Assembly: GCA_949318235.1 (NCBI GenBank)
Contig: OX439135.1
Location: 24,411,550-24,475,549, forward strand
Direction: 5' to 3'
DNA: 64,000 nucleotides
Origin: Ecdyonurus torrentis
Taxonomy: Eukaryota; Arthropoda; Insecta; Ephemeroptera; Heptageniidae
The notes beneath the pieces were generated by a model. The model was not told the DNA's origin, did not search any database, and saw only the letters and a program-made list of their open reading frames with translations. The position numbers and the translations under genes were made by a program. Below, one piece after another: positions 12,752 through 46,422 of the stretch. Within the stretch, counting starts at the first letter, position 1. Each line of letters starts with the position of its first letter.

Positions 12752-13072
12752 TCTCTCTAAAACTAGGATTATGCATCTCTCTTTGAAGTTAATTGAACTA
12801 AATATAAATTCAATAGGCTTTTAATATAAAAACTAATTTTCTAACCACATAAAAAAATCATATCAAATATCCAACGCAAAGACAATCTACGTAATCATAG
12901 TAATTCAGCCGACATCAAATAACAAAATAAGTTTGCTGTGGTAGCAAAGTAACTTTGAATTATACAAGATTATGCCAACGATATCGCTGCCTAATATTAT
13001 TGTATGGTGATTATCAATAAGGAGCGCGGGAACAAAAATTATAATCCACTATTTCCTATCATTTAGCATTGC

Positions 13073-13130
<58 letters not shown>

Positions 13131-14363: not shown

Positions 14364-14404
<41 letters not shown>

Positions 14405-17400
14405 ATAGGGTATTTGCATTCATGTTAAATTCAACGTCATGTTGGATAACTCAATAACATGGTTAGCATAAGAAAATAACTCATTTTAGCAGTTTAAAAC
14501 CACTATGCAATGTTTTTGAGAGCATTGATGCTGTAAATTTGTTGAATTAGTATCTCAAGTATGTGAGAAAAATAGCAATAAATTAACATATTTCTCAACG
14601 AATTGGAACTTTAAAAAAAATATGAAGTTTTGCCCTATATACTGAGCAATGTTATTCACTACTCCAGTATGGCATCCAAGTGCATTAAATATGACGTCAT
14701 GCGGATACACACTTATCACTTGTTCCAAATTTTGTTATTTATGTAATCACAAGTTTACCATTTAATTTTAGATAATAATGGCAACTACCACAATTTTAGA
14801 GATATTGTTTGAAATTAACTATTACGTATTTGTCATGAAATTAAATAAATAAATAAAATATTATATAAAAAAAAATTTTTAAAAACAATATATTAATATT
14901 ACGTATTTAAATATTGTAAATGTATAATATACTAACTTCTAAAAAAAAATTATAATAATTTTTATCTATGTTAAAATAAACTAAATGGTAATTAATAAAT
15001 TATCACTTTGTTGAAATATATTTTGTAATTTTTAAATTTGTGTTATTTTTGTTAATAATAATTAAATTTTTATACACCCTATATTAGAGAAAAATACTGC
15101 ATCGATTCCGGGAATACTTGATTTAAATCCCTTAAATTGTCAACTTACTTTTTTTATCATTTAGAATACTAGATTGATAATTACCATACCTTATTATCCA
15201 TGAATTAGACACCAACACATTGATTTTTGTATTTATTTTCATTTTGACTGTTATATCACGTATCTGACGTCATAATGTACCGCCACCAATCACAGTCACC
15301 GCTCTGGTCACTTGATAAATTTAAGCCTCTCTCTCAAGTTCTTTACCCCTATTACAGCCCCATCTGTACATTGTGACGTCAGATACGTGATATAACAGTC
15401 AAAATGAAAATAGATACAAAATCAAGGTGTTTGTGTTTTATTCTTGGATAATAAGGTATGGTAATTATCAATCTAGTATTCTAAATGATAAAAAAGTAAG
15501 TCGACAAGGGCTTAAATAGTGATAATATATGCATATATAAACTTCATATCTCTGTGTTGCAAAATTTAACTCCCAGTAAGTTTCAATGGAGATTGTCATA
15601 TATATATTTTTTATTATTCCTTGATCATATACTTTTAATATTTTTCAAGTTTCCTTCCTTCTCTAACATTCACCATGTGGACTCCAGAGATGCCTGAAGT
15701 GATTTTTATATCGTCTAGTAAACGTTAAACATTATTTAAATTTATAAAAAAAGAAAATAAAAAATAATAATAATAATATAAATACAATATTATTTACTTT
15801 TAAAAGTTTCAAAATATAATTATTAATAACATAATATTTAATATTTTTTAAATATTTTACATAATTTTTTTGTTGAAAAATAATTTAAAAATAATAAATA
15901 ATAAGATAATAATTGAAGTGCACATTGTTGTTATTTAAAAAAAAAAAGAAGAAGAAGATTCTTTTTATTTTTAGTATCTGTTTAAGCAATTTTTAAAAGA
16001 AAAAAAAAAAAAAACTATGGTCAGAGATATTTAATAACAATCAACCACACTTGTGAAGGATTTTTATTAATTTTTTTTTTTCTCGATAAATTTTCTAAAA
16101 AGTGTCACCATTAGTTTCTATTAGTTTTATTATCATGTGTAACAAATTTCAATTCGGTTTATCCCTCGGTTATGTGGTAAAAAATAGCTATCACATATAA
16201 CTACATTACCGAGGTACAAATTGATTTTATGAAATTTGGTACTCATGCTATTGAAGCCAATAGAAACTTATGCTGAACGAATAAAAACATTATCGACTAA
16301 AAAAAAAAAATAAAAAAAAAATCATGTGTTGAATTGTTAAAGGGATTTTTAAGTCAAAATATTGCGGTTTGGTACCAGAAATTTACAGTACAAATACTAT
16401 ATAGAGTGTGTGCGGATGACGTCATTTTGAATGCTTTCCGATGCTCTTCTTGAGCAATAAATAACTCAGCATAGGACAAACGTAGTTTTTAGATATTTTC
16501 TAGTTATTATTTTTCTTCAATACTTGAAAAACTAATTCAACATATTAACAGCATCAATGCTCTCAAAAATATTTCAAAGTATTTTTAAACTGGCAAAATG
16601 AGTTATTTTCCTATACTGGGCCCATGTTATTTAGCGCTCACGTATGACGTCGACTTTAACATGAATGAAACCACCCTATAGATACACTTTCACTATAAAT
16701 ATATCACCAGTAATCAGCTTATATTGTAATTATCTAAAATATTTTGTTTACAATTTTAATTACCTGTTGCCCAGATGTCAAGACCTCGCAATGTTTGCCC
16801 GAGAAGTTCGGCTCGCAGACACACAGATAATTTCCAGAGTTATCCTCGTGGCAGTGTCCGCCATTTCTGCACGGGTTAATCCCGTCTCTGATACACGGAG
16901 AACCTGCAAGAGTGAGTGTTAATTAAGGGAGTAATAGGGTAACAACTTTATATCTCAAAAACTAGAAGTGTTTTAGGTCTAAATTTGGTGTCATTGTGTA
17001 GCTAAGGGTCACACCTAGCCGTGATAAAAATTTCATTATTTTTGACCGTCCCGAAAAAAAGAAAAAACAAAAGTTTAACACGAAAGCTAAACCCTTTCAT
17101 TAAAACTTCCCGTGTAAAATAGGCGTTAAATTACAAACTCTCAGAAAAAAAATTATTGAAATTAACATTCGACCTTATGGGCTTAAAAGTTTAAAAAATC
17201 ATATAAAACAATTTGAAGGTATTCACCAATTTTTTTTATATATTTGAAATTGTCTCAAGCTGAAGTATCATTGTGCAAAATTGCAGATTTTTTGGACGGT
17301 AAAAGTTTGAATCTAATGACCGACGTCGGTAGCCCCCCCCCCCCCCCCCTAAAACACAGAGACTAGTATTACATACAAAGTTACTTCAACTTAGCAATAA

Positions 17401-20400
17401 GAACTTTGAACTACCATGAGTGGATATGTCACTTTTTAATTGACTTCAGACAGATTTGTATATTTTGAATCTTATTTTACCCCAATAGTATTGAGGTTAT
17501 CGGTTTAAAAAATTCTTAAAAAATAATAATAAATAAAAAAAAGTCACAAAACACGTAAAAGTTTGCTCATAGTATTCGTCATTTTAATATCTCCGGAATC
17601 AGTGCACTATAAATTTATGAAAAATAAAAAATGGAAAAATTATCGGTTTATCTTGCGGGGAAAGCTAAGGGTCCCTTAATTTAACATTACCGCGCTTATG
17701 AGAGAAAACACGTTTTTTTTTTGTTTTTTTGTTTTTTTGTTTTGTTTTTTTGTTTTTGCAATTTTTTCGCAATTTTTGAGAAAACTACTGCACCGATTCC
17801 GGAGAAAACTCAATGAAAAATACTATAGACAAAATTTTACGTGTTTTAAATTCCTTTCACATCCTTGCACTTTGACGCCATGTTTGTGGTGCTTAATGCA
17901 TTGTCCAGCATAGGGGAAACATCATTTTTCCTCATTTGTCGCAAAAATACATGTTTATTTTGATTGTAAGTATTTTTCTGATATTCTTCTAGCTTATTAG
18001 GAGCTGGAAATAAGGCTTTGATTGAGGTTTGAAGCTTCTTTTGCTATTTTTAAAAAAGACGTTTTTCCAATGCTGGCCTGCGTATTCTTGACCAACAAAA
18101 TGACGGCTTTTAAATATGAGTGCAACCGGTCTGTAGAAAAATTTTACTAATAATTTGATACCGATAACCTCTATTGTTTCTTCCCATAAGCATAATGTAA
18201 ATTTAGGGACTTCAGTTTTACCCGCTCGCTAAATTGCATTGCAACAAATAACATTTAATTAACATTAAACCTGCTAACAAAGTATATTTTTATTAATTTA
18301 ATTTTTATTTTATTGTTACTATTGACGTTTTTTAATGTTTTAATTAAAATTATAAAAAAATAATAATATATTTAAAGGCGTAGAACACCTTGAACAAAAA
18401 AGTTGCGTAATATCCTAACAAACCTGAAAATCAACGTTGATTTGGACGGAGTCATTGATTTCTAATTTAATTTCCATTCACAAAATGCCGCTGCCGGTCA
18501 CTGACGTCACAGCTCGCCTGGTCCACTCGCAAGTAAATCGGGCAAGCTGTGACGTCAGTGACCGGCAGCGGCATTTTGTGAATGGGAAATAAATTAGAAA
18601 TCAATGACTTTTCAGCCAAATCCACGTTGATTTTCAGGTTTGTTAGGATATTACGCAACTTTTTTGTTCAAGGTGTTCTACGCCTTTAAGTAAATAACAT
18701 TTTTGTACAAATATTTAAATAATTTTATATTTATTTTGTTAAAATTTGCATTTTTAAAATTTTATTTTAAATTATTTTTTTTATTTAAAGTTTTTCATAG
18801 CAACACTATTAAACTGTGCATTAGCATATTTTCCATTATTAGCTCATAAGTATGTTGTTGGATCGATGATTGGTAGAATAGGAATCTATGTTTAATGAAC
18901 AAGTATCTGAAACTTATTGGCGATGGTCAGAATTGATAAATGATTTAATATTAATGGATTAAAACTTGAAAATAAATCTATAAGGCGCAATCATATTGAT
19001 TGAATATTAAAAATTACGTTTTTATTTTTCAAAAAATACGGCATATTTTTCGTAAACGCTTTTAAAGTCTTTTTTTTTTTTTTTTTTTTTTTTTTCGCAA
19101 CTTTTGCAATTTTTTTTAATAAATCATGAATGAAACCAACCATAATGTAGAATATGACACACAGGAAAAAATACGATAACAAATGTAAATAGTAATGAAC
19201 TAAAATTTTTAATTTACTTTTGAATTAAATATGCCCTACTGATATCATTAAATTAAGAACAGTCATTGTATACAATTCTAAAAATAATGTCTGTTATTAA
19301 AAAACCAAATCAAACAAACAAGTATTTACCTTTGAAAATTATTTAGAAATATTAACAATATTAAAATTAAATTTCTACTGACAGAAAACTACTTGTTTTA
19401 ATTTGTCAAAATGCAGTTTAGTTTGTCGCTATAGGGTGTATGCGGATGACGTCATATTTATTGCACTTGGAGGCCATACTGGAGTAGTGCATAACATTGC
19501 TCAGCATAGGACAAACTTCATTTAAGTCAATTTTCTTTGGGAAATCGGTTAATTTTTTGTTATTTGTCTCACATACTTGAGATACTATTTCAACATATTT
19601 ACAACATCAATGCTCTCAAAAATATTGCATAGTGGTTTTAAACTGGCAAAATAATTTTTTGTCCTATGCAACCCATGTTATTGAGTTATCCAACATTGCG
19701 TCGACTTTAACATGAATGCATACACACTATAGCGCGCGGCGTCCCCTAATTTAACATTATGCTTGTGGGGGGAAATATATATATATATATTTTTTTTTTG
19801 GCAATTTTAGTGAAAACTACTCTACGTATTCGGATATAATTAATTAAGAAATACTATAGATATACTTTTACGCGTCTTAAGCCATCTAAAAATTTTCAAA
19901 GAATTTTTTAAACTGCTAATCTCCAAAAAGAAATATTGCCCATCTAACCCATCTTTCTCATTTACCCACGACAAAGTAATAATAAAATAAAAAAAATTAC
20001 TTACCAGAAAAGTTTACCATAAATATAAACCAATGTTTGGCTACTATAAACTACAACTCTACATCTACACATTTAGATCTAAAAATATACAAAACTTTTT
20101 GTTATTCATTTTTATTCTTTAATTTGTCAACAACTTACATAATTATACAGTCAGTGCAGATTTTATAGCACCAGGTTCTAAATGCACACACACGAGTGTG
20201 ATATTTAAAAATTAGCGTCGACTTTGTAATTCTTATGATAAAAACATGTACTGTGTTTCAATGGTAAAGTTCGTGGAGCTTATCGGTTTAGCGCGCGGGG
20301 TGACGCGGGGAAAGCTAAGGGTCCCCTAATTTAACATTAAGCTTATGGAAAAAAAACATTTTTATGTTTTTATTTTCTTATTTTTTTCCATTTTTAAGAT

Positions 20401-23400
20401 CCATACTTAACTGATTTCGGAGAAATTTAAATGAAAAATACTGGACATACTTTTACGTGTTATAAGCCATAGAAATTTTTTATTTTCATTGATTTCTAAT
20501 TTATTTTACATTAACAAAATCACAGCTGCGGGTTTGTGATGTCACAGTAAAATAAATTAATTAACTAACAAAATGAACAAATAGTTGAAGAATATTCAAT
20601 TTTTTAGATCTAATTAAAAAAATAAAAATAAAAAAAATGAATGAATGAATGAATTGTAAAAAAAAAAATGAATACAAAAACGTTATAATATATTTTGAGA
20701 TTTGCATATTTGGTATGACCAACTTACCCATATCTTTGTCACAGTTCTTGCCAGTATACCTAGGAGCACAGTGACATTCATAGTCGTTCTTGTCATGTCT
20801 CGAGACACATGTGCCGTGTCGCATGCAGGGCTCATTGTAACAATGGTCTATCACATGACCTGCATTGTTGTTGTTGTTGTTGCAGCAAGCAAACACAGAC
20901 AAACAAACAAACAAACAAGCACACTCAAAAACAAACACAAACATTGAGCGAGCACAACTATACTATATACCATGCCAATGAAAACAATACAATGAACAAA
21001 CATTAGGGGGTGTGAAGGAAGGTGGTGCGAATAAAAAAGCAAGGGATGGATCTAGCTTTAAGGCCTAGAACAACTTGAACAAAAAAGTTGTGTAATATCC
21101 TAACAAACCTGAAAATCAACGTTGATTTGTCCAGAGTCATTGATTTCTAATTTATTTTCCATATACAAAATGACACGAGCGGTCACTGACGTCACAGCTC
21201 ACCTGGTCCACGCGTGCGTAAAACAAGCGAGCTGTGGCATCAATGACCACTCGCGCCATGTTGTGAATGCAAAATAAATTAGAAATCAATGACTCTGGAC
21301 AAATCAACGTTGATTTTCAGGTTTCTTAGGATATTACACTACTTTTTTTTCAAGGTGTTCTACGCCTTTAAAGAGAAAGTACAAGGGTTACAAGATGGCT
21401 TCTTCAATGTTAGATAATGACATAAACTGTTCATTGCGACTTACATATGATGCCTCAAATCCCTTTAGTAGCCCCATGGTAGCCCTGAAAACTTGCGCTC
21501 ATCGTGCGAGATATGCAGTCTGTTACACCATAGTAAAAAGCCGTAACTATGACGTAAAAGATACCGGATGAGTTGCATATCTCGCAGGATGATCACGAGT
21601 TTGCGGGACTACGGAAGGATTTTGGGTCATCATTATGTGAGTTTATGAACAGTTCATCTCATTATCTAACATTGAAGAAGCCATATGTTGTAACCCCTGA
21701 ACTTACTCTTTAATAAGGTGGACTTCTGATAATTCTAATCCTATCTTTTATGAGCAGTCTTTTTTTTTTTAATTTATAACTATTGCTTACTTCCACCGTT
21801 TCCGATTGAATTCAAAATTTTTTTTTATGAACATTTAATTTTTAAATTATAATTATAATTTTATAAAAATGATTATAGCAACAATAATTACTCTTATTGA
21901 ATCTTATATGAAGAAGCTCATATCTGCCATGCACTTTAATTTAACATCTTTTAAGTTAATGGATTATTTGCAATTATTTGTTAAATTTATAAAAAAAATA
22001 ATAATAATTACAAAAAAAAAAAATTAAGTTTGTTGTAAATTTAATTTCTATAAAATACTAAACTATTAAAAAATATATAATAAAATATAAAAATAAAAAA
22101 ATGAAATAAATATATTAAATTTAATAATAATTTTAGTGGTAGTAAAAAATAATAATAAAATAGAATTAAGTAAAATATTATTAGATTTTTGTTATATACA
22201 ACAATGAAGGAAAATAAAGTGCAAAACTTTGAAAAAACAGGTGCTGAAAAAAACAAAACAAAACAATGTAAAACAAAATGTGAATAAAAGAAAAAAAAAG
22301 TGTTTTTGCATTTTAATTTTTAAAATTTTATAATTCTTGAATTTGCAATCTAAATTGTACCTGATTTTTTTTTTAATTTTATAAAAATACCTTTTATATA
22401 TGTATGTATTTATTTTAAAACTGGAAATAAATAAATTATGATTGTTAAATTATTCAGTACAGCAAAATTACTAGTCAAAATCAAAATTTCTCCGTAAATT
22501 TTAATCATTTACCTCAAACGGGTTTTTTTTTTCCCCCCCCCCAGTTAAGTTTGTATTGGCTTTAATATCATGAGTACCAAATTTCAAGTCAGTTTGATCA
22601 TTAGTTATGTGGAAAAAAAAATAACATGGGAAATATAGAATGTACTATGCTTACTATGTTATTTTTCTCATGTTATTTCCCAGGTTATTTTTATCATTTT
22701 ATTTTACTTTATTTTTTTCCACACAACTAATGGACAAATTGACTTTAAAATTGGTGCATGTGCTATTGACTATATAGTAAAGAAACAACTGTTTTGAGGC
22801 CGACTATAAGAAATTTCGATCACATCCGCTTCCGTTTCTCCTTACTACGCATGCGTAGTAAGGAGAAACGGAAGCGGATGTGACTGAAATCGCTTAAAGT
22901 CGGCTTCAAAACCGTTGTTCCTTTACTAGTCAATGTATGTTTACTTAAAAACAGGAAAAGGAAGTTCCGGAAAAGGAAACCACGTGACGGTAAAAGTGGT
23001 AGAAAACTTCGTGCCAGCAGCAAGCTAACCTTAATACTGTTCGTAAACCCTGTTCTCTGCTCCTAAAATGACGATCGCCTATGGTTATTCAAATGGAATG
23101 CACATTTTTTGGTGCAAGAGAACAGGGTTTACGAACAGCAATCTTGAGCTACCTGGAGCTACCTCCCACTTTTACCATCACGTGGTTTCCTCTTCCAGTC
23201 ACTTCCTTTTCCGCATTTTGAGTAAACATAAGCAGTCAATACCAAAAGGTAACGCAAACTTATTAGAATGAATGAGCTAGCATAATTATTATGACAGTTC
23301 GCCTGCAAGTTTAGTAGGTAGGCTTTTTGCTTCACAGTCTACTGTACATTTATAAAATATGAGCCTAGTATATTAATAGGTGAGACCAGAGTTACAAGTA

Positions 23401-26400
23401 CAATATTAAGCAAACTGGCAGTAGGCTGTGAAGCAAAAAGCCTACCTGCCAATCTGACAGGCGCTCTCGCCATTTTGTCTCATAAAACCCAGTCTGTAGT
23501 ATTTATGTATTTAATTTTCATGATTAATAGACTTAATCATCAATTAAAGCCATAGACCATACAAAAAACAACACGTGCTTTTTAATGAATAAACATGAAA
23601 TGGGAACTTCAAAACTGATGACAATTTTTACCAGAATATTAATGCAGCCCCAGCGTAAAAATACTGTAAGTATGCAATTTTTGCATGTTTCTAACGTCAG
23701 AAACATGCAAAAATTAGTACTAAAAAAAAAAAAAAAAAATGTGCGGGTTGCATAAATCGAAACTTTTTGATCACTGCTACGAAGCTACAGTTGGGTTTTT
23801 ATAGACAAACTAATATTATTTTTGTAAGTCCCATCTAGTGTTTTGTGATATAAATGCTTATGTTTTTCTCTAGTCTATTCTTTTCAGTAAAAAAAAAGAA
23901 AAAAAAAAAAGTCCATTTACGTTTGAGGTTTTTTAAATGAATTAAAAAAAAAAATTTACTGTCACAAATTTACTTGTTACGGTTATAGTAAATAATGTTT
24001 GTAAATGCAAAAACACTGACTTGAGCCCAGCAGGCAGTAAGTGAAGTGCACCCCCAAGTAGCTAGCCCTACATAAGACAAGTGACGTCACAATACTCACA
24101 ACTAGCGTGGTCCATGGGACAAGGACCCCACTGTACATTGACTCCTTGCAGATAAGTCCCCACAGCCTCCCTCAGGACCAGACTGGGACCTTCTAAGATA
24201 CATCCCACGTAGCCCTCGCCTCCCAGCATCACCACCGTGGCGGCTACCTCTTCAGGGCTTGTGATGTCTCCACGTACTGTCACCTGGAAGCACAAATTAA
24301 CGTTAAATTTGAAATTCGCGCGTTAAAATTTGCAGAAGACGAACGTAAAACGAAAAAGTCTTCTAAGGGGGCGTGGTCACTCTAAAAAAATTATACATTA
24401 CTTTTAGTTACGAATCCTAAATTAATTAAAAAAATCACTTTTAAGTTATTATGAGTAGCTAAGTAGCTAAGTTATTATATTATCAAATTAACGTTAATTT
24501 TGAAATTCGATAACATCTAGTTATTATAATGAATGACATAGATTATAACAAATTGTGTTGAAAATGAGCTACAATAATTATTACGTAGTTATTTTTGTAT
24601 TATTTATGATTTCAGGAAATACGTATAATTTTAAAAATTAGAGAAGAAAAAATACCAAACAAATAAATATATATTTGAATAAGTGAACAAATCAATCAAT
24701 CAATCAATCAATTAATCAACCAATCAATCAAACATTCTATCAATCATCAATCAATCAACCAACCAATAATCAATCAATCATTTAATCAATCAATCAATTA
24801 ATAAATTAATCAATCAAACAACCAATTAATTAACCAATCAATTAATCAATCAATGAATCAATGAATCAATTAGTAAATAAAAAACAAATGCAGGCAGTAG
24901 TTTTCTATAACAAAAACTATTATGTTAATAAGTTAGTTAAGCGTGTAATAACTCTTGGCCCAGCTGTACATTTGCAATCGATAAATTCTTGTGTTGCGTG
25001 TCAATTCTAAATCTGATAAAAGCCGGAATTCCGTGTTTTATTTGTTAATATTTGTTACTTAGTTACATTGAACTGTGGATGCTATTTATTATGCACAATT
25101 TGACCCACTAACGAAATAAACAAATTATTTGTAGTAGTGCTGGTATAATAATTTATTGGATTTGTGATAAAAATATTAATACCATGTTAAATCATATCAT
25201 ATCGTGTTTTTTTTTTTTTTTTTTTTTTTTTTTCCAGCTAGAAATAAGGCTTTGATTCATGCTTGAAGCTTCTTTTACTATTAAATATATAAAAATGACG
25301 TTTTTCCTATGCGTTGGCCTGTGTACTCCTGACAAAGCCAAGTCAAGACTCATGTGCGCGCCGTGTACCGCACGACACGCACTTACCGAATAATGCATCG
25401 TATGCATTTCTACACAATGAAACATAGCTCGTTCTGTAAAATAAAGTGAATCTCAATAACAGTGATTGGTTGACCCACAAAATAAGACACATTCATTGGT
25501 TGATCTTGTTTTTGAGCCGATAAAATTGAGTCGCATATTGAGACTGGAACTTTTTTTTGGGAAGTTTCTTTCATTCTTATCAAGTTCAAAAAGAAGAAAA
25601 AACAATGATTGACCATAATATGTATAAACGTAGTAAACAGGTAACGACGTCATAACCAGCTGTTTTTAACAAAGGAATATTTTCAAATCTGGCTCAATAT
25701 TTGTGTGTAGTTTATAGAACGAGCTCATAAGCATATTTGATATTTTGATGTTTATTGAGGTTTCTTACACCAACGGTAAAGCAATACAGTAAACCACATA
25801 AAACAACATGTGCTTTTGAATCAATAAACACAAAATGGGATCTGCAAAACTGATATGACAATTTGTACCAGAATGTTAATGTAGCCCCACGAGAGAGCGT
25901 GAAAATACTGTAAAGTATGCAATTTGAGTGAAAATTCATGTTTATGACGTCAGAAACATGCAAAAATTAGTATGAAAATGTTGTGCGTGTTGCATAAATT
26001 AAAATTTCTGATCACTGCTACAGTTGGGTTTTGAGACAAAGTAATGTTATTTATGTAAGTCCCATCAAGTGTTTTGTGATATAAATGCTTATGTTTTTCT
26101 CTGGTCTATTCCTTTAAGGTTTCAAAATGATAAAGAATACAATCGAAAGGTTACAAAGTTCAAATTAATAAACGTGAGGAAGGAGAAGAAGTGAAAAATA
26201 AAAAAAAAAATAAAAAAAAAAATGAAGAACGTTATAAATAGAAAAATTATTCACTTTAATTTTCATTCTTATTGTTTTGCTTCAATAAATTTTAAATTTT
26301 CTAATCATGCGAAACGAATTTCACAAAAAAAAAAAAAAAAAAAAAAATTCAAACCAACACTCTTACTGTAATCGTATTTTTTTCTCACTCTTTTACAAAA

Positions 26401-27165
26401 AGATGTTGTAATTTTTATAAAACCGTTTAATGTGTTAAAATTATAATTTCTGAAGTGTAAGTACAGGTTGAAGTTTAAGAAAGCATTTTTTTAACGTAAA
26501 AATAGTTGGTAAAAAATACATGAAGTATAATTATAAAGGTAAAGTTCACTTCCTAGATGTCATGTTTTAACTTCGTGACTTTAAAGTAATTATGCTCTCT
26601 CTGTTGTTAGTATCTTTTGCATTGTTATAAATATGATTCATATAATAATAACTGCCAATTTTAGCTTATTGCGTAAAATTTTCTTTTATTTTCATGACGG
26701 GGAAATTATAAATGTAGAAAGGTTATAATGTTTTACAAATTTAAAAAAATTCAAAAAATTCTCAGTTTTTATTATTCATGTAATTGGATTTTACGTGAAA
26801 TCTACATGAAAAAGAGTGCATTAAATTGCAAAATAGTTAAATGCAGGGTCACTGTGTGGTTATATATTAATTAGCTTAGAACAGGTATATGGTGGTTTCA
26901 TTCATGTTAAAGTCGACGTCATAAGTGAGTACTAAATAACAGTAACACATTTTGCCAGTTTAAAAATACTTCACAAAATATTTTTGAGAGCATTAATGTT
27001 GTTAACAGGTTAAATTAATACCTCAAGTATGCCAAAAAATATATATATATATATATATAAATATAAGGTAGTAGTAATATATAGAGAGACCCAGCATTTC
27101 TTTTTTGTGTGCAACATGGTAAGAGGGGAAACTTGCTAATAGGAAGGAAGGGGAAACTTGCCATG

Positions 27166-27201
<36 letters not shown>

Positions 27202-29277
27202 AACTTGCTAGGTGATTTTTTTTTTTAAAGTGGTTTGAACGAGGTTGTTAACAGTTGATTTTAAATTTATTTGAGGTTTGGCACTCACTTGATTTTAATT
27301 TAATCATTAAAAACTTTGCAATAACCAAGACTCGATCCACCGACCCTCGTCATGCAAAACCAGCACTCTACCGACTGTGCTATCAAGGCACTAGGAAATT
27401 AAACAGCAACTCATATAATATATATTGCTTTTTGTAAATATTTTCTAATCAAACGCCTTTCTCGCTTCTCAGGGAATATATTAATTAATTATAATGAAGT
27501 TCATACATATTAAGTACTCTATCGAAATACGTCATAATTGCCCCCAAAAAAGATTTAAGGGTCCCACCCCTGCAAATTGAAGTTTTCCGATTTAAACACA
27601 TAAAACGACTTTACTGGGGTAACTCGACTTGCTAAAGATGATGGTGACCACCAAACATGCCAAAATCCCCCCCCCCCCCCCAGACTGATTTAAGGGTGAC
27701 ACCCTTGCAAGTAAATGTTTCCCGATTTGAAAGCATTCAGCGACGTAAACGGGGTAACTAGACCTACCAAGGACGATGGTGACTACCAAACATGCTAAAA
27801 TTGGTCCCCAGACGGATTTAAGGGTCCCACCCCTGCAAATTAAAGTTTTCCGATTTGAACGCATTCAACAACGTTACCAGGATAAATTGACCTACCAAGG
27901 ACGATGGTGACTACCAAACATGTCAAAATGGCCCCCCAAGAATGATTTAAGGGTCCCACCCCTGCAAATTAAAGTTTTCCGATTTGAACGCATTCAACAA
28001 CGTTACCAGGATAAATTGACCTACCAAGGACGATGGTGACTACCAAACATGTCAAAATGGCCCCCCAAGAATGATTTAAGGGTCCCACCCCTGCAAATTA
28101 AAGTTTTCCGATTTGAACGCATTCAACAACGTTACCAGGATAACTTGACCTACCAAGGACGATGGTAACTGCCAAATATGCTAAAATTGGCCCCCAGACG
28201 GATTTAAGTTTCCCACCCCTGCAAATTAAGGTTTTCCGATTTGAACGCATTCAACGACGTTACCGGGATAACTTGACCTACCAAGGACGATGGTGACTAC
28301 CGAACATGTCAAAATTGCCCCCAAGAATGATTTAAGGGTCCCACCCCTGCAAATTAAAGTTTCCCGATTTGAAAGCATTCAACGACTTTACTGGGGTAAC
28401 TTGACCTACCAAGGACGATGGTGACTACCAAACATGCTAAAATTGACACCCAGACGGATTTAAGGGTCCCACCCCTGCAATTTGAAGTTTTCCGATTTGA
28501 ACACATTTAACAACTTTACTGGGGTAACTCGACTTTCTTAAGATGATGGTGACCACCAAACATGCCAAAATTGACCCCCAGACTGATTTAAGGGTGTCAC
28601 CCTTACAAGTAAATGTTTCCCGATTTGAAAGCATTCAACAACTTTACTGGGGTAGCTTGACCTACCAAGGACGATGGTGGCTACCAAGCATGCTAAAATT
28701 GACCCTCAGACGGATTTAAGGGTCCCACCCCTGCAAATGGAAGTTTTCCGATTTGAACGCATTCAACGAAGGTTAACAGGATAGCTCGACTTGTTAAAGA
28801 TAATAGTAATTACCAGAAATGATAAAGTTGACTCCCTGACCAATTTAAGGATCCCACCCCTGCACATTGAATTTCTTCAAATTTGACGCTTTTAACGACA
28901 TTAACGAGATAACTTGACTTCCCAAAGGCGATACTTGCCACCAAAAGTACTAAAATTGATCTCCTGACCAATTAAGGGTTGCCACTCCTGCAAATTGAAA
29001 TTTTCCGACTTTGACACTTTCAATGACAATATCGAGGTATTTTGACCCGCCAATGACGATGATGACCACCAAAAATGTTTAAAATTTGACCTCTGACCAT
29101 TGTAACGGTGTCACCATTGCAAGTTATAACACTCCAATTTTGACGCATTCAAACAAATTTTGTAAATTTTTAATTAAAAATATGAAAAATCTTTTTTGCA
29201 ACAACAAATTACTTTCAACAACGTTACCGGGGTAATTTGACCCACCAAAGACAATGATGACCACTAAAAATGTCAGA

Positions 29278-29318
<41 letters not shown>

Positions 29319-32300
29319 TTTTTTTTTTGTTTTTGTTTTGTTTTGTTTTGTTTTGTTTTGTTTTGTTTTGTTTTGTTTTGTTTCTCAGCTACTTTTCTTG
29401 AATATACTTTTACCCAAAATCCCTTTTCTTTAAATTTATTTTAGAATTTATATTTTATCAGAGTATGAAAATATTTCAGCTGTCCATTTTATAAATATTT
29501 TACGTATAGTATGTAAAAGAGTATTTCAAAATTTGAAAATGATTTTAATTACAATAAAATGAACGTGAAAAAGATAAAATATTTTACTTTCCTAGGTATA
29601 TTTTTACGCTCCGATTTATCAAATATATGCCACATTCTTTAGATAATGTAGATATAATAACACCTACAGATCCAGTAGTTAAAATTTGGCATCTATTTTC
29701 CAAGGAAAGAGGCATCGCTTTGGTGGGTAATTTTATGATTAACTGATAATTAATTATTCTCATTATTATTATTATTTTCTATTTGGGTATTTAAGCTTTG
29801 CCTATCAATTACTAAAAAAAATGTTAAAATAAAAGAAGCAACGTAGAAAATTAGACAAATTTAGCTTTATATAACAGCTTAGAAAAAAAGGCAGACATTG
29901 CAGACATAATAAGTAAACAAAAATTGAAATAGAATAATAATTCGTAGCAGAAGAATTTGTATTTTGTTTTTTATCGTTATTTTTTGAAAAAAAAATGGAA
30001 AAAAATTATAGCAATAAATAATCTACTATTAAAAGAGGAAAGAAAAAATACAGAAATAAAAAAAAAATATATATTTAAATCCTTGCAATCAAAAATACAA
30101 TAATGGAGCAAAAACAAACTACAAATTTAACCACTTAATTATAAAAAAATGTTAAATTTAAGCAAAACGCGCCACTCTTTGAGAAATTTTTTATTAAAAT
30201 TGATGCTATTTTGTTAAGGGCATTAGACTAGTTTTAGCCTATTTCTGACGTCATAAACAGTAATATTCACGCAAATTGCTTACTCTACAGTTTTTTCACG
30301 CTCTCTTATGGAGCCACATTTACATCCTGGTAAAAATTATCATCAGTTTTGTAGATCCCATTTTGTGTTTAATGGTTAAAAAGAACATGTTGGTTTATAT
30401 TTTCTATAACTGAATGGATTTTGGAAATAAATTTTGTTTCTTTGGTTTATTTTTTAAACAAATATATAAATAAGGTCCAAAATGCACCAACTAAAAAAAA
30501 AAAAAATTTAATTGTTATTAAATTTATATATTATAAACGAATATCTAAAACAAATTTGAGTAATTTTGAAGGAAATTAAGTTGTGATGTAAAACCTTAGA
30601 AAAAGATTAAAGAATCCATAAGTTACAATTAGAAATATACATATTAATAATAAAATTAAAAAAATAATAATAATATCAAAATATATGTATTACTAGTTCC
30701 AGTACGTTACTAAGATTTTATTGCCTGATTTTAAGTTTTGTTATGGTAAAATACTTTATGATCAGGGCCTACATTTTTTTAGTGATGTTGCAGCACTTGA
30801 TTATAATTTAAATTTTTTATTGAGTTAATAAACCAAAGTTAAAAATAATTCTTAAAATGAAAACCAAGTACAGCTCTGACCAAAAGTTTGAGAACGATTT
30901 GTGTATATGCAACCCACAATTACACTATGTTATCTTTATGAGAAAACGCTGCGACCGCCGCTGTCCCGTTCTTAAACTTTTGGCCAGAGCTGTACATAAT
31001 TAAAAAAATACCTACTTCTGAAAAATAGAACAAAATTGAAATCGTTATGCAATTAAGTAAATTGATAACTCATAAATGTCTTTAAGGAAAAATATTTTCT
31101 AAAGTAAAAAAAAAAAAAAGAAAAAAAAAAAAAAGAATATAAAATCAAAAAAAAAAAAAAAAAGATAACAAAACTAAAAAGAAAAAAACAAAAACAAAAA
31201 AACAAAACAGTGGATATAGCCACATAGCTGCAACTTGCAAGTTTTTTTAAGTAAAAGAATTCATTTTGAATTATATATTAACGTATTTTATGATTTTAGT
31301 TATGAGTTTTAAAACAATGCCAAACAAATATTTTAATTAATACAAATAGTTCTATAGGCGCTTTTAAGTGATCTGACCAGGGTCGTGAGATCCTGTGTTA
31401 TTGCCCTATACTAAAAACGAACCCTTAATGATGTAGTTCAAATTTTCACCGCAACAATCAACATGTAAAATGTAAGTGGCGCTGCGATCTGTGTGTGAAT
31501 TTTAAAATTCCCATACAGATTACAGCGCCACTTTTATACGTAATTTTGTATTCTTGCATTGTTGCGGCGAAAATTTGAATTACATCATTAAGGGATCGTT
31601 TTTTCAACAATAGCTTCCTATCCTGTTTATTTATCCAATGGATCTGACATAAAATATTTTCCTTAGTTTTAAATATTTATATGATTTGGTCCAGATTTGA
31701 TTATCCGATTTAAAGTAAAAAGGGTATTTATTCATGTATTATACATAATTTTTTTGTTTATGCTTTTTTATTGATCATTACACTAATGTAAGTATTTACT
31801 AATTTACAAAGATAAAATGTTAATAATACAATAGTGCGTAAAAATTTATAGTTTAATATTAAGAAACAACTAAAACAGAAAGAAATTAAAATCATAAAAG
31901 TAAAATACCTTGTTAAACCAAAATAAACTATTCAAAACTATGGACTTGCCGAAAAATCAGTATAAAAATTAATATTGTTCATTGACATACTCAAGAACAT
32001 TTAAAAATAACACCAAGGGTATCAAATAAAAGCATTGATTTATTATTCCTAAAACAAAATCCAAAGGAGAGAAAATTAAAAATATACAAATAATTAAAAA
32101 TTGAAAAACGGTTTAACGTAGTACGTGACCAATTTGGACCGGAAATCGCTAAAAGAAGAACTATATTTTCAAAAAAAAAAAATTATAATAATAATAATAA
32201 AAAAATTAAAACAAAATTTAATATTTATTTCCCACAAACAAACAATAATAAAATTTTTAAATAAAATCGAGTAAATTTAAATTTAGTTTTTATGTTCCGA

Positions 32301-35300
32301 AAAAAGTTTTTATAAATTTTTAAGTTTTAGAAAATTTCTAATTTGACTAAAATTTGTCGCAAAAATTTGAATTTCCACATTTACATGTTTATAGAAAAAT
32401 AATAATCAAAGCAAATTGCACATTGCAGTTTTACCTTATTAAATACATCTTCATACATAAAGCAGTATAGAAACATTCAAGTAAACAAATAAAAAAGCCT
32501 TACATCATTTATTTTAACTTTCAAAATAAAGCAAAAATTAAACATCTTAAGGGGGGTAGTTGACCGACTGATATCTCGCAAACTAGGACGGTTTCGCATA
32601 ATAATAATAACACAAAGTAAAGAAGAAATGTTACTTAAAAATTTAATTATGTCAAACATGTGAAAACACGATCAAATATTTTAGTTATTACACTTTAAAG
32701 ATAACATGTAAATGTGGAAATTTAAATTTGAGCAGGAAATTTTAGTCAAATTAGAAACGTTTTTACAATTAAAAATATCATTAAAATCTTTTTTGATATA
32801 AAAGAATTTATTTTAAATTTAACTTGATTTTATTTGAAAATTATAGTGTTTGTTTTATTGGAATTAAATCATGTACAAAAAATTATTGGGAAAATATAGT
32901 TCTTCTTTTAGCGATTTCCGGTCCAAATCGGTCCCCCACCACCTTAAAACAGAAGATGACTGTTATCGATATAGAAAAAAAAAAAAAAAAAAAAAACGAA
33001 AATATTATTCGTATTGAAAAACTTTGTAGAATAGAAACCAAAAATTATATTTGATTAGTATAAAATAACATGTTTATTTTATTTTTTTTTTCTTCAAGTT
33101 TTTTAAAGAATATTAAATCAAATAACTAACCAACCAATCAATTAACTTGTTAAACCAAAAGAAACTATATTCAAAACGACAGCAGAAAACATATTGAACA
33201 ATCGTTATGAAAATAATAATGATCATTGACATACGTAAAAACTATATACCAAACAAAAAATACACGTCATTATAATAACAACGTTATCCTTTAATCAATA
33301 AAAAAATCGAAACTTAAAAATTAAAAACCCAGTTATTTAACGGAAAAAAAATACAAATAACATGCAGTACTGAAAAAACAAAGGAGACAAATCGAAAACA
33401 AACAAATAAAATTGATAATAATAGTTTAAAATATTACATTTTTAAAAAGATGTATTATATTAAATTGCATTTACATATAGTCACTAAAGATGAGCTTACA
33501 GTATATAATAAACAAGTTAATAAAAAGTAAATTTCTAAGTGTAGTTAAAGCAAATAAACTATAGTGTCATGCATAAAAATCAGTATCAAACCAAGAGACC
33601 AATCCTAAAAAGTGACGAGTCCTTATTATTAAAGTTTCAGTTGTGTTTTGAAAATTGTGTTGTAAAACAAAGAAAAGTGTTGTAAAGAAAATAAGATCCA
33701 GCTTAATAATAACAAGTAACTTTATTAAGGCGTTGTTAGGGCTGCACAGCCCTATTTTACAAAACCTTTACGCCAAAATTACATGAGAAAATGACATAAG
33801 TAAAAAAATAAATACAACAATGCGATAAGTATGCAGAAACAACGTTTCCTGAAACAATAGGGAAGTTCGTGCTAGTTTTTGTACGTAATTATTTTCTATA
33901 TATAGGAAACACCTATCACCGCCACCAAAGCCATGCTGCCATAAACTTGCTGCCATGCCCCCCCCCCCCCCCCCGGGCCGATGCAGCCCCCACCGCCGCC
34001 GAAGTCCTCCGCCGCCGCAAGAACCGGCGCACACAAAACTTATTACCGGCCCGGAACCGGCGCGCACAAAAATTATAACCGGCTCGGAACCGGCGCACAC
34101 AAAACTTATTACCGGCCCGGGACCGGCGCGCACAAAAATTATAACCGGCTCGGAACCGGCGCGCACGAAATTTATAACCGGCCCGGAAAACTTTGATACC
34201 TTGCGGCGGCGGAGGACTTCGGCGGCGGTGGGGGCTGCATCGGCCCGGGGGGGGGGGGGGGGGGGCATGGCAGCAAGTTTATGGCAGCATGGCTTTGGTG
34301 GCGGTGATAGGTGTTTCCTATATATAGAAAATAATTACGTACAAAAACTAGCACGAACTTCCCTATTGTTTCAGGAAACGTTGTTTCTGCATACTTATCG
34401 CATTGTTGTATTTATTTTTTTACTTATGTCATTTTCTCATGTAATTTTGGCGTAAAGGTTTTGTAAAATAGGGCTGTGCAGCCCTAACAACGCCTTAATA
34501 AAGTTACTTGTTATTATTAAGCTGGATCTTATTTTCTTTACAACACTTTTCTTTGTTTTACAACACAATTTTCAAAACACAACTGAAACTTTAATAATAA
34601 GGACTCGTCACTTTTTAGGATTGGTCTCTTGGTTTGATACTGATTTTTATGCATGACACTATAGTTTATTTGCTTTAACTACACTTAGAAATTTACTTTT
34701 TATTAACTTGTTTATTATATACTGTAAGCTCATCTTTAGTGACTATATGTAAATGCAATTTAATATAATACATCTTTTTAAAAATGTAATATTTTAAACT
34801 ATTATTATCAATTTTATTTGTTTGTTTTCGATTTGTCTCCTTTGTTTTTTCAGTACTGCATGTTATTTGTATTTTTTTTCCGTTAAATAACTGGGTTTTT
34901 AATTTTTAAGTTTTGATTTTTTTATTGATTAAAGGATAACGTTGTTATTATAATGACGTGTATTTTTTGTTTGGTATATAGTTTTTACGTATGTCAATGA
35001 TCATTATTATTTTCATAACGATTGTTCAATATGTTTTCTGCTGTCGTTTTGAATATAGTTTCTTTTGGTTTAACAAGTTAATTGATTGGTTGGTTAGTTA
35101 TTTGATTTAATATTCTTTAAAAAACTTGAAGAAAAAAAAAATAAAATAAACATGTTATTTTATACTAATCAAATATAATTTTTGGTTTCTATTCTACAAA
35201 GTTTTTCAATACGAATAATATTTTCGTTTTTTTTTTTTTTTTTTTTTCTATATCGATAACAGTCATCTTCTGTTTTAAGGTGGTGGGGGACCGATTTGGA

Positions 35301-38300
35301 CCGGAAATCGCTAAAAGAAGAACTATATTTTCCCAATAATTTTTTGTACATGATTTAATTCCAATAAAACAAACACTATAATTTTCAAATAAAATCAAGT
35401 TAAATTTAAAATAAATTCTTTTATATCAAAAAAGATTTTAATGATATTTTTAATTGTAAAAACGTTTCTAATTTGACTAAAATTTCCTGCTCAAATTTAA
35501 ATTTCCACATTTACATGTTATCTTTAAAGTGTAATAACTAAAATATTTGATCGTGTTTTCACATGTTTGACATAATTAAATTTTTAAGTAACATTTCTTC
35601 TTTACTTTGTGTTATTATTATTATGCGAAACCGTCCTAGTTTGCGAGATATCAGTCGGTCAACTACCCCCCTTAAGATGTTTAATTTTTGCTTTATTTTG
35701 AAAGTTAAAATAAATGATGTAAGGCTTTTTTATTTGTTTACTTGAATGTTTCTATACTGCTTTATGTATGAAGATGTATTTAATAAGGTAAAACTGCAAT
35801 GTGCAATTTGCTTTGATTATTATTTTTCTATAAACATGTAAATGTGGAAATTCAAATTTTTGCGACAAATTTTAGTCAAATTAGAAATTTTCTAAAACTT
35901 AAAAATTTATAAAAACTTTTTTCGGAACATAAAAACTAAATTTAAATTTACTCGATTTTATTTAAAAATTTTATTATTGTTTGTTTGTGGGAAATAAATA
36001 TTAAATTTTGTTTTAATTTTTTTATTATTATTATTATAATTTTTTTTTTTTGAAAATATAGTTCTTCTTTTAGCGATTTCCGGTCCAAATTGGTCACGTA
36101 CTACGTTAAACCGTTTTTCAATTTTTAATTATTTGTATATTTTTAATTTTCTCTCCTTTGGATTTTGTTTTAGGAATAATAAATCAATGCTTTTATTTGA
36201 TACCCTTGGTGTTATTTTTAAATGTTCTTGAGTATGTCAATGAACAATATTAATTTTTATACTGATTTTTCGGCAAGTCCATAGTTTTGAATAGTTTATT
36301 TTGGTTTAACAAGGTATTTTACTTTTATGATTTTAATTTCTTTCTGTTTTAGTTGTTTCTTAATATTAAACTATAAATTTTTACGCACTATTGTATTATT
36401 AACATTTTATCTTTGTAAATTAGTAAATACTTACATTAGTGTAATGATCAATAAAAAAGCATAAACAAAAAAATTATGTATAATACATGAATAAATACCC
36501 TTTTTACTTTAAATCGGATAATCAAATCTGGACCAAATCATATAAATATTTAAAACTAAGGAAAATATTTTATGTCAGATCCATTGGATAAATAAACAGG
36601 ATAGGAAGCTATTGTTGAAAAAACGATCCCTTAATGATGTAATTCAAATTTTCGCCGCAACAATGCAAGAATACAAAATTACGTATAAAAGTGGCGCTGT
36701 AATCTGTATGGGAATTTTAAAATTCACACACAGATCGCAGCGCCACTTACATTTTACATGTTGATTGTTGCGGTGAAAATTTGAACTACATCATTAAGGG
36801 TTCGTTTTTAGTATAGGGCAATAACACAGGATCTCACGACCCTGGTCAGATCACTTAAAAGCGCCTATAGAACTATTTGTATTAATTAAAATATTTGTTT
36901 GGCATTGTTTTAAAACTCATAACTAAAATCATAAAATACGTTAATATATAATTCAAAATGAATTCTTTTACTTAAAAAAACTTGCAAGTTGCAGCTATGT
37001 GGCTATATCCACTGTTTTGTTTTTTTGTTTTTGTTTTTTTCTTTTTAGTTTTGTTATCTTTTTTTTTTTTTTTTTGATTTTATATTCTTTTTTTTTTTTT
37101 TCTTTTTTTTTTTTTTACTTTAGAAAATATTTTTCCTTAAAGACATTTATGAGTTATCAATTTACTTAATTGCATAACGATTTCAATTTTGTTCTATTTT
37201 TCAGAAGTAGGTATTTTTTTAATTATGTACAGCTCTGGCCAAAAGTTTAAGAACGGGACAGCGGCGGTCGCAGCGTTTTCTCATAAAGATAACATAGTGT
37301 AATTGTGGGTTGCATATACACAAATCGTTCTCAAACTTTTGGTCAGAGCTGTACTTGGTTTTCATTTTAAGAATTATTTTTAACTTTGGTTTATTAACTC
37401 AATAAAAAATTTAAATTATAATCAAGTGCTGCAACATCACTAAAAAAATGTAGGCCCTGATCATAAAGTATTTTACCATAACAAAACTTAAAATCAGGCA
37501 ATAAAATCTGAGTAACGTACTGGAACTAGTAATACATATATTTTGATATTATTATTATTTTTTTAATTTTATTATTAATATGTATATTTCTAATTGTAAC
37601 TTATGGATTCTTTAATCTTTTTCTAAGGTTTTACATCACAACTTAATTTCCTTCAAAATTACTCAAATTTGTTTTAGATATTCGTTTATAATATATAAAT
37701 TTAATAACAATTAAATTTTTTTTTTTTTTAGTTGGTGCATTTTGGACCTTATTTATATATTTGTTTAAAAAATAAACCAAAGAAACAAAATTTATTTCCA
37801 AAATCCATTCAGTTATAGAAAATATAAACCAACATGTTCTTTTTAACCATTAAACACAAAATGGGATCTACAAAACTGATGATAATTTTTACCAGGATGT
37901 AAATGTGGCTCCATAAGAGAGCGTGAAAAAACTGTAGAGTAAGCAATTTGCGTGAATATTACTGTTTATGACGTCAGAAATAGGCTAAAACTAGTCTAAT
38001 GCCCTTAACAAAATAGCATCAATTTTAATAAAAAATTTCTCAAAGAGTGGCGCGTTTTGCTTAAATTTAACATTTTTTTATAATTAAGTGGTTAAATTTG
38101 TAGTTTGTTTTTGCTCCATTATTGTATTTTTGATTGCAAGGATTTAAATATATATTTTTTTTTTATTTCTGTATTTTTTCTTTCCTCTTTTAATAGTAGA
38201 TTATTTATTGCTATAATTTTTTTCCATTTTTTTTTCAAAAAATAACGATAAAAAACAAAATACAAATTCTTCTGCTACGAATTATTATTCTATTTCAATT

Positions 38301-41015
38301 TTTGTTTACTTATTATGTCTGCAATGTCTGCCTTCTTTTCTAAGCTGTTATATAAAGCTAAATTTGTCTAATTTTCTACGTTGCTTCTTTTATTTTAACA
38401 TTTTTTTTAGTAATTGATAGGCAAAGCTTAAATACCCAAATAGAAAATAATAATAATAATGAGAATAATTAATTATCAGTTAATCATAAAATTACCCACC
38501 AAAGCGATGCCTCTTTCCTTGGAAAATAGATGCCAAATTTTAACTACTGGATCTGTAGGTGTTATTATATCTACATTATCTAAAGAATGTGGCATATATT
38601 TGATAAATCGGAGCGTAAAAATATACCTAGGAAAGTAAAATATTTTATCTTTTTCACGTTCATTTTATTGTAATTAAAATCATTTTCAAATTTTGAAATA
38701 CTCTTTTACATACTATACGTAAAATATTTATAAAATGGACAGCTGAAATATTTTCATACTCTGATAAAATATAAATTCTAAAATAAATTTAAAGAAAAGG
38801 GATTTTGCGTAAAAGTATATTCAAGAAAAGTAGCTGAGAAACAAAACAAAACAAAACAAAACAAAACAAAACAAAACAAAACAAAACAAAACAAAAACAA
38901 AAAAAAAACAAAAAAAAAAAAAAAAAAAAAAAAAAAGATCTGACATTTTTAGTGGTCATCATTGTCTTTGGTGGGTCAAATTACCCCGGTAACGTTGTTG
39001 AAAGTAATTTGTTGTTGCAAAAAAGATTTTTCATATTTTTAATTAAAAATTTACAAAATTTGTTTGAATGCGTCAAAATTGGAGTGTTATAACTTGCAAT
39101 GGTGACACCGTTACAATGGTCAGAGGTCAAATTTTAAACATTTTTGGTGGTCATCATCGTCATTGGCGGGTCAAAATACCTCGATATTGTCATTGAAAGT
39201 GTCAAAGTCGGAAAATTTCAATTTGCAGGAGTGGCAACCCTTAATTGGTCAGGAGATCAATTTTAGTACTTTTGGTGGCAAGTATCGCCTTTGGGAAGTC
39301 AAGTTATCTCGTTAATGTCGTTAAAAGCGTCAAATTTGAAGAAATTCAATGTGCAGGGGTGGGATCCTTAAATTGGTCAGGGAGTCAACTTTATCATTTC
39401 TGGTAATTACTATTATCTTTAACAAGTCGAGCTATCCTGTTAACCTTCGTTGAATGCGTTCAAATCGGAAAACTTCCATTTGCAGGGGTGGGACCCTTAA
39501 ATCCGTCTGAGGGTCAATTTTAGCATGCTTGGTAGCCACCATCGTCCTTGGTAGGTCAAGCTACCCCAGTAAAGTTGTTGAATGCTTTCAAATCGGGAAA
39601 CATTTACTTGTAAGGGTGACACCCTTAAATCAGTCTGGGGGTCAATTTTGGCATGTTTGGTGGTCACCATCATCTTAAGAAAGTCGAGTTACCCCAGTAA
39701 AGTTGTTAAATGTGTTCAAATCGGAAAACTTCAAATTGCAGGGGTGGGACCCTTAAATCCGTCTGGGTGTCAATTTTAGCATGTTTGGTAGTCACCATCG
39801 TCCTTGGTAGGTCAAGTTACCCCAGTAAAGTCGTTGAATGCTTTCAAATCGGGAAACTTTAATTTGCAGGGGTGGGACCCTTAAATCATTCTTGGGGGCA
39901 ATTTTGACATGTTCGGTAGTCACCATCGTCCTTGGTAGGTCAAGTTATCCCGGTAACGTCGTTGAATGCGTTCAAATCGGAAAACCTTAATTTGCAGGGG
40001 TGGGAAACTTAAATCCGTCTGGGGGCCAATTTTAGCATATTTGGCAGTTACCATCGTCCTTGGTAGGTCAAGTTATCCTGGTAACGTTGTTGAATGCGTT
40101 CAAATCGGAAAACTTTAATTTGCAGGGGTGGGACCCTTAAATCATTCTTGGGGGGCCATTTTGACATGTTTGGTAGTCACCATCGTCCTTGGTAGGTCAA
40201 TTTATCCTGGTAACGTTGTTGAATGCGTTCAAATCGGAAAACTTTAATTTGCAGGGGTGGGACCCTTAAATCATTCTTGGGGGGCCATTTTGACATGTTT
40301 GGTAGTCACCATCGTCCTTGGTAGGTCAATTTATCCTGGTAACGTTGTTGAATGCGTTCAAATCGGAAAACTTTAATTTGCAGGGGTGGGACCCTTAAAT
40401 CCGTCTGGGGACCAATTTTAGCATGTTTGGTAGTCACCATCGTCCTTGGTAGGTCTAGTTACCCCGTTTACGTCGCTGAATGCTTTCAAATCGGGAAACA
40501 TTTACTTGCAAGGGTGTCACCCTTAAATCAGTCTGGGGGGGGGGGGGGGGATTTTGGCATGTTTGGTGGTCACCATCATCTTTAGCAAGTCGAGTTACCC
40601 CAGTAAAGTCGTTTTATGTGTTTAAATCGGAAAACTTCAATTTGCAGGGGTGGGACCCTTAAATCTTTTTTGGGGGCAATTATGACGTATTTCGATAGAG
40701 TACTTAATATGTATGAACTTCATTATAATTAATTAATATATTCCCTGAGAAGCGAGAAAGGCGTTTGATTAGAAAATATTTACAAAAAGCAATATATATT
40801 ATATGAGTTGCTGTTTAATTTCCTAGTGCCTTGATAGCACAGTCGGTAGAGTGCTGGTTTTGCATGACGAGGGTCGGTGGATCGAGTCTTGGTTATTGCA
40901 AAGTTTTTAATGATTAAATTAAAATCAAGTGAGTGCCAAACCTCAAATAAATTTAAAATCAACTGTTAACAACCTCGTTCAAACCACTTTAAAAAAAAAA
41001 ATCACCTAGCAAGTT

Positions 41016-41050
<35 letters not shown>

Positions 41051-42153
41051 CATGGCAAGTTTCCCCTTCCTTCCTATTAGCAAGTTTCCCCTCTTACCAT
41101 GTTGCACACAAAAAAGAAATGCTGGGTCTCTCTATATATTACTACTAATATATATAATAAACAAAACAAAAAAGTTAATTTTTCAAAGAAAATAGCCAAA
41201 AACTAGGTTTGTCCTATGCTGAGCAACGTTATTCATTGCTCTACATGAGCATCGAAAAGCATTCAGAATGACGTCATGCGCACACATCCTTTTAAATATT
41301 ACTTTTAGGTAATATAATAGTCCACTTTACCTGTTATTTAGTAAAAAAGTAATTTGTATCCATGTATCACTTAATTATACCACTTTCTCCCCTCTAAATA
41401 TTTATATTACATTAAAATTTTACAATATATTTACTTCAAAAAAATATTAAAAAAATTCTTGCTGCAACGTTTATTTTTCTGATTTTTCAAGAATAAAAAA
41501 TTACGTAATGCACTGTGCATGCAGAAAACTATGTAGCTTTTTTAAAGTCTTTATTCTGCCAATCTTTTCATTATTTCAGTACAGTACCATTAAATATTTG
41601 CACAGCATATAAAATAGAATTATTTGAAAAAGCTACACAATAAATAAATGCATAATAATGCTGAATATACTCACTAACAACATAAGTCTAAAAATAATGA
41701 CGATAGTAATTTTAACCTTCAATCCTAACTGTAATTTTAAACAACAACAACACAGTTTTCCTAGCTTCATAAAAAAAATAATAAAAAAATAAAAAGAGCA
41801 AAAAATGCAAGTTAGCTTTAACGTAATTATGCACTAGCGTGCTGTGCTGCAAATCGACGCTGCGGAAAATCACCACATGATTTCGAATTTTTTAAAGGAT
41901 CGATTTTGTAGACAAATGCTTTAGCAGCTATTGTTTATACTGAACGTCTGGCCAACTTTTGGTTACCTGTTAAACTAAGGTACTTAAACTATATTAAGTG
42001 AGTGAGCCAATATGATAATTGATAACAATTAAAACTGTATGTTCGATCGGAAAGTATATTTTATATAAGAAAAATGCTATACACACTTTTATTTTTTTTA
42101 AGCTAGTAGAGAATAATACAAAAAATACATAAAAACGTAATTTATGCTGCATT

Positions 42154-46324: not shown

Positions 46325-46422
46325 CTGAAACATAACAACAAACAAATATTTAGAGCAGTGGTAAACAACATTTACACATTTTGTTACACATATGGAGCAA
46401 AATATAGGGATTTCATAGGATA

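Follow-up and report, generated by a model that had tools for sequence, protein, structure and literature searches.

A dispersed family of giant palindromic elements with Maverick-like ends in the mayfly Ecdyonurus torrentis

Snap-back derivatives of protein-primed linear genomes carry one genome end twice and have lost genes. Mobile elements of the Polinton type are described as encoding a protein-primed DNA polymerase B (PolB) and a DDE integrase (PMC6431247), and intact vertebrate Mavericks are reported to span 12.7 to 24.6 kb, with terminal inverted repeats (TIRs) of 46 to 1,447 bp, ends of the form 5'-(AGT)2//(ACT)2-3' and also (AG)3//(CT)3, and 6-bp target duplications (PMC8097293). Among elements composed largely of inverted repeats, the nearest published form that we found is Galileo copy 112 of Drosophila willistoni, reported as 9,021 bp long with terminal repeats of 4,246 and 4,680 bp, ~140-bp tandem repeats, and, in that account, no transposase (PMC4168063). 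The palindrome described here (copy A) is larger, has no detectable coding content, and belongs to a family that is similar to Maverick (Polinton) elements in its ends and in the footprint of its insertions.

Structure and insertion site of copy A

The window (the whole 64,000-bp stretch of E. torrentis DNA analyzed) is AT-rich, with about 30% GC, and copy A occupies 14,077 bp of it (27070 to 41146, no strand assigned), with outer limits that were set by the end motif and sit one base inside the BLAST self-match. In that self-comparison, 27069 to 34021 pairs with 41147 to 34200 at 99.77% over 6,956 columns, with 5 mismatches and 6 gap openings. The left arm (27070 to 34021, plus strand; 6,952 bp) and its mirror image, the right arm (34200 to 41146, minus strand; 6,947 bp), are 99.9% identical, and their paired coordinates sum to 68,216 to 68,223. 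Global alignment gives six substitution columns, two within a poly-T/TTTTG repeat and four clean (29414, 29887, 30712, and 33309, with 29887 adjoining a poly-A run), and all gaps fall within homopolymers or the poly-T/TTTTG repeat. A sequence-only reading of the window had described a 14.1-kb near-perfect palindrome with arms of about 6.95 kb, coordinate sums of about 68,219, rare substitutions, and a 178-bp non-palindromic core, and self-alignment bears out this description. A chance origin was rejected, as the longest identical arm block, at 2,283 bp, is far above chance and further inverted loci exist.

The core (34022 to 34199, plus strand; 178 bp) is made up of five 33-bp ACCGGC-rich units, a pattern with no match in 100 shuffles. 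Each arm holds a ~1.54-kb array of 128-bp units, about 12 of them in the left arm (27552 to 29091, plus strand) and an equal number in the mirror array of the right arm (39125 to 40665, minus strand); units inside one array are just about 81% alike, and a 25-base piece of the unit had no match in pattern scans of prokaryote and viral collections. Smaller repeats are nested in the arms (30227 to 30414, about 30868 to 30995, 31413 to 31603, and 32115 to 32936) and mirrored in both, and the inverted ends of one are reminiscent of Tc1/mariner MITEs. Frames in the left arm are no longer than chance would give: 159 of 200 shuffles equaled or exceeded the longest, at 90 aa, and coding content was rejected by this shuffle test together with tblastn using polymerase pieces. 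Scans of the window for tRNA and Rfam families gave no matches at their thresholds.

Elsewhere in the window, 4698 to 5721 forms a 1-kb palindrome, 88% self-complementary and with inverted ends of its own. The segment beside it (5715 to 5837) is 90% like 27230 to 27352 in the outer arm of copy A, a piece that runs into a stretch read by eye as tRNA-like, in which ARAGORN found no tRNA. Small self-complementary repeats also lie at 18340 to 18722, 21056 to 21373, and 22775 to 22928, the first two of which are mutually related.

Copy A is an insertion, because its flanks are the left half (26886 to 27045, plus strand) and right half (41154 to 41290, plus strand) of one ~310-bp dispersed repeat, split at or in a TA repeat within it. 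The halves are continuous in five other aligned window copies; the comparison used five window copies in one alignment and eight in another, with four common to both. By end reading, the element starts with AGTAG (AGTAGT in copy A; 27070 to 27074, plus strand) and ends with CTACT (41142 to 41146, minus strand). AATATA is present on both sides (27060 to 27065 and 41147 to 41152, plus strand), with four extra bases (27066 to 27069) intervening before the left AGTAG, so that this imperfect pair in AT-rich DNA is only a tentative target duplication. A 10-bp duplication in the TA repeats was dropped as uninformative.

Ten frames were scanned in the window, and the five with Pfam EGF domains (minus strand, 1810 to 20962) all lie to the left of the palindrome; these five, of animal type, apparently belong to one host gene. 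Neither of the nearest candidate exons (24068 to 24322 on the left, 46080 to 46349 on the right) matched Pfam, even with E≤10 allowed, and the right one has no PDB match. An intronic location, as the sequence-only reading had it, is not confirmed.

The family, its ends, and a relative with a predicted polymerase

An arm probe (window positions 29400 to 30260) identified nine loci, A to I, in the 503-Mb genome. The search scored 40 of 47 candidates and gave 44 match rows, of which 20 belong to the nine loci and the other 24 (34 to 105 bases) were set aside as matches to other repeats. It gives a lower bound on copy number, and the family has at least seven palindromic elements. These seven are inverted pairs spread over four contigs (A, B, and D on C17, C and E on C8, F on C26, and G on C12), with sizes of 14,077 (A), 14,846 (B), 14,819 (C), 14,510 (D), 13,301 (E), 15,204 (F), and 15,172 bp (G); an earlier probe of the core and inner arm had found two inverted loci besides A, namely B and C. 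Cores were read in A, B, C, and D and are not palindromic, and E, F, and G were read as two inverted outer stretches with both ends, from which their centers are presumed. B has a core like that of A (about 90%), as does C in parts (about 80 to 91%), which suggests that the palindromic form is older than the split of these three copies and was inherited rather than formed anew each time. The core of D has no likeness to those of A to C by blastn, and the ACCGGC core motif was not found in the examined pieces of H and I. The outer few hundred base pairs differ among A to E, the end itself excepted.

The remaining two loci are not complete palindromes. Locus H (C12) has one arm and the center, and its second arm breaks off after about 200 bp at a 200-N scaffold gap (C12:35218001-35218200), as expected of hard-to-assemble sequence; the two inner arm pieces, 196 bp each, match perfectly, and the 38 mismatch columns are confined to a ~100-bp core. 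Locus I (C8) showed no palindrome when its interior stretch was compared with itself.

AGTAG and CTACT are the outermost bases in all eight readable elements (A to G and I), and the end of H was not found in the DNA around it when probed with the motif of E. The strict (AGT)2 end, AGTAGT, is present in A and B only, and C to G and I have AGTAG followed by A or G. Perfect 6-bp target duplications flank C (ATAACA), D (AATGAA), E (ATTATT), and F (TGTATA), each with a chance of about 6e-4 per locus; B, G, and I sit in TA arrays, making a TATATA duplication uninformative. The ends and insertion footprint thus resemble those of Maverick (Polinton) elements. As to whether further copies would share the ends and the center of copy A, a question raised by the sequence-only reading, the ends are common to every readable element among the nine loci, and the center is alike in B and C but not, by blastn, in D.

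Element I (C8:31877483-31894307; 16,825 bp) is non-palindromic, with 250-bp inverted ends that are identical except for one poly-A indel and a terminus 98 to 99% identical to that of D over 123 bp. Its left side carries an array of the 128-bp type and its right side is like one palindrome arm (about 75 to 83%, in pieces). Between these sides lies an 810-codon frame (L046:570-2999) that continues in-frame into 628 codons on the adjoining stretch (L044:1-1884). The 810-codon frame has C2H2 fingers and Endonuclease_7 above cut-off, with endonuclease VII matches in PHROGs. The 628-codon frame has at least 7,986 homologues (best, 66%); among the 120 listed, 14 carry PF03175 and 25 carry PF02945, with names including "DNA-directed DNA polymerase" and "DNA polymerase type B, organellar and viral/Recombination endonuclease VII." Judged by these homologues, I carries an open frame for a predicted PolB-type DNA polymerase. 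The 628-aa piece itself matched nothing in Pfam (E≤0.1) or PDB (E≤1) and gave only a weak match to a PHROG of unknown function. Eleven other scanned frames of I gave nothing above a cut-off, and no integrase, ATPase, protease, or capsid was recognized in the 13 scanned of the 62 listed frames. Polymerase remnants were not found by tblastn in the searched pieces of A to H, the best match (E of 1.4) lying in the window outside the palindrome.

Arm homogenization within copies

The two arms are homogenized within each copy while the copies differ from one another. Over full arms, differing columns number 6 of 6,945 in A, 5 of 7,276 in B, and 2 of 7,262 in C, and identity between these copies is 81.9 to 85.3%; among their variable gap-free columns, the arms agree within every copy in 1,257 and disagree in some copy in 7. 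In 3.6- to 3.9-kb stretches of seven copies, arm substitutions number 0 in B, C, D, F, and G (with some gaps) and 5 in A, and the 40 apparent substitutions of E all fall in the first 59 bp beyond the element's end, with none inside it. In D, 2 of 2,840 inner-arm columns are mismatched and the outer 529 bp contain no mismatch; the end stretches of F and G have 2 mismatches in 640 and 0 in 643 columns, respectively. In a 16-row tree built on a 900-bp stretch, the left arm groups with the right arm of the same copy in seven of seven copies.

F and G differ from each other at 22 columns in their left arms and 19 in their right arms, with no arm substitutions there in either copy. Had the two arms evolved independently and these changes arisen since insertion, about 24 to 44 arm substitutions would be expected (Poisson P of 4e-11 or less; the lower figure, 24, counts clustered changes down). 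The arm comparisons point either to in-place conversion from arm to arm or to fresh identical arms in each new copy.

Insertions follow the same pattern, with private insertions of at least 30 bp found in both arms of A (4), B (7), and C (4). Several are array units or simple repeats, two of those in A lying in the poly-T/TTTTG repeat and most of those in B in the 128-bp array; those outside arrays and simple repeats are the 271- and 397-bp insertions of A and the four of C. A full 331-bp dispersed repeat, 82 to 89% identical to near-full copies elsewhere, with others within the window and beside C, occupies both C arms and is absent from A and B, meaning that a transposon-like element inserted in one arm was carried over to the matching site of the opposite arm. 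Other private insertions could instead reflect loss from the remaining copies. The only large difference between arms is a stretch of 165 bp that the right arm of B lacks.

Origin of the elements and comparison with known systems

We consider it probable that copy A is a member of a family of 13.3- to 15.2-kb palindromic, non-coding mobile elements of the Maverick (Polinton) type, derived by snap-back and mobilized in trans; this reading is the simplest account of the ends, footprint, size, absence of genes, and relative I. Each element would consist of two inverted copies of one ~7-kb end-arm round a short center, bounded by AGTAG...CTACT and duplicating 6 bp of target on insertion. It may have arisen as a snap-back (panhandle) derivative of a PolB-bearing linear element, in which a strand of the linear protein-primed genome folded back on itself, so that the end-arm was duplicated in inverted orientation, one end was kept twice, and the genes were lost. 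We infer that copying would be by a protein-primed polymerase, with integration in trans. Mirror copying, either by a single strand folding on itself or by arm-to-arm gene conversion, would keep the arms identical; a folded single strand would form a ~7-kb hairpin, each arm serving as template for its partner, and this would account for the mirror copying as well. In its fullest and more tentative form, a quite possible one that we would stop short of calling probable, the elements are gene-free, fully palindromic Maverick satellites, snap-back genomes of near-intact-Maverick size that parasitize a PolB-bearing relative and whose perfect mirror image is rebuilt in each round of replication, erasing or cross-copying one-arm mutations and transposon insertions.

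We note, however, that several observations count against the Maverick-type reading, including the lack of an integrase, ATPase, or capsid in the scanned frames of I, the negative Pfam and PDB scans of its 628-aa polymerase piece, the restriction of the strict (AGT)2 to A and B, the imperfect duplication of A, the outer-end divergence among A to E, and the core, which is unlike in D and without its motif in I and H. One alternative is a version of this reading, with which its odds overlap: the elements are Maverick-type and the arms owe their identity solely to in-place conversion between the arms of old insertions, with no regeneration during replication. The homogenization data apply to it equally and the few arm differences of A could be unconverted mutations, but the perfect 6-bp duplications of C to F and the near-identical 250-bp ends of I suggest recent insertion, leaving little time for in-place conversion. 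Six base pairs make a weak clock and this is not decisive; we rather doubt this alternative while regarding it as possible.

It appears unlikely that the elements are ordinary cut-and-paste transposons of foldback type (Mutator/FB, Galileo/P, or the like) whose terminal repeats have become overgrown and whose arms stay similar through in-place gene conversion of the kind in Y-chromosome palindromes. Such an origin draws on the close resemblance in form to Galileo copy 112 (PMC4168063), on the ~220-bp tandem repeats described in the terminal repeats of Tetris (PMC4079207), and on the mirror-copied insertions, which fit gene conversion. The long inverted repeats with tandem arrays found here are those of foldback elements (Mutator/FB, Tm1), but the duplication is 6 bp, as opposed to 9 bp reported for Tm1 (PMC3169594) and 7 to 8 bp for Galileo and the P superfamily, relative I, with a terminus nearly that of D, carries a predicted polymerase frame, and no transposase was seen in the loci studied. 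The proposal of a foldback-type mobile element in the sequence-only reading stands as to mobility (the split target repeat and related copies with target duplications), foldback-like form, and the absence of coding frames, and is incomplete as to kinship, with the duplication length, the ends, and relative I pointing to Maverick/Polinton elements. Its other proposal, a very recent local inverted duplication, does not fit and was rejected, since such an event, like a simple read-through chimera, would repeat one flank on the other side, and the flanks of A are two halves of one repeat, with inverted pairs on four contigs. An assembly or library artifact, whether a missed adapter or an amplification chimera, is highly improbable. 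Artificial palindromes are described in long reads after whole-genome amplification (PMC6218980) and H is cut by a gap, but the cores of A to D are not palindromic, and the inverted architecture of A recurs at six other loci whose flanks differ, perfect 6-bp duplications bordering four of these.

If the Maverick-type snap-back reading is true, foldback-like elements would be linked to virus-like self-synthesizing transposons, and the family would be a counterpart, in an animal genome, of defective snap-back genomes. The contrast within and between copies makes mirror copying measurable, and an arm-to-arm copying event leaves a natural trace in any insertion that is private to a copy but present on both sides, the 331-bp repeat of C being an example; here such traces occur in dispersed elements instead of the palindromes of sex chromosomes. 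We found no report of palindromic or snap-back Polintons in the open-license literature, judged by titles and the starts of abstracts, and no counterpart, in the portions of the literature on comparable elements that we drew on, to the Maverick-like ends and relative, the number of giant-sized copies, and the quantified arm homogenization.

The family shares with Maverick/Polinton elements the AGT-type ends (in the strict (AGT)2 form in A and B only), the 6-bp target duplication, a similar total length, and a relative (I) with a predicted PolB-type frame; it is unlike them in that A is devoid of coding content and consists almost wholly of inverted repeat, in contrast to vertebrate TIRs of 46 to 1,447 bp, and in that no integrase or capsid is recognized among the scanned frames of I. 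Like Galileo copy 112, as reported, it is a giant near-palindrome without a transposase, with tandem repeats and pieces of other transposons in the arms (PMC4168063), but copy 112 is 9 kb long, belongs to the P superfamily with its own 7- to 8-bp duplications, and has unequal numbers of repeats in its arms. Tetris and Tm1 are likewise described with long terminal inverted repeats that contain internal tandem arrays (PMC4079207, PMC3169594), but these are shorter, their arm arrays vary in unit number, and the duplications of Tm1 are 9 bp. Y-chromosome palindromes are also inverted duplicates with arms reported to be under gene conversion (PMC3403216), on a non-recombining sex chromosome, whereas the elements here are dispersed and mobile. 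If one end was kept twice and the genes were lost, as proposed here, the E. torrentis elements are like snap-back derivatives, from which they differ in forming a dispersed family with diverged members.
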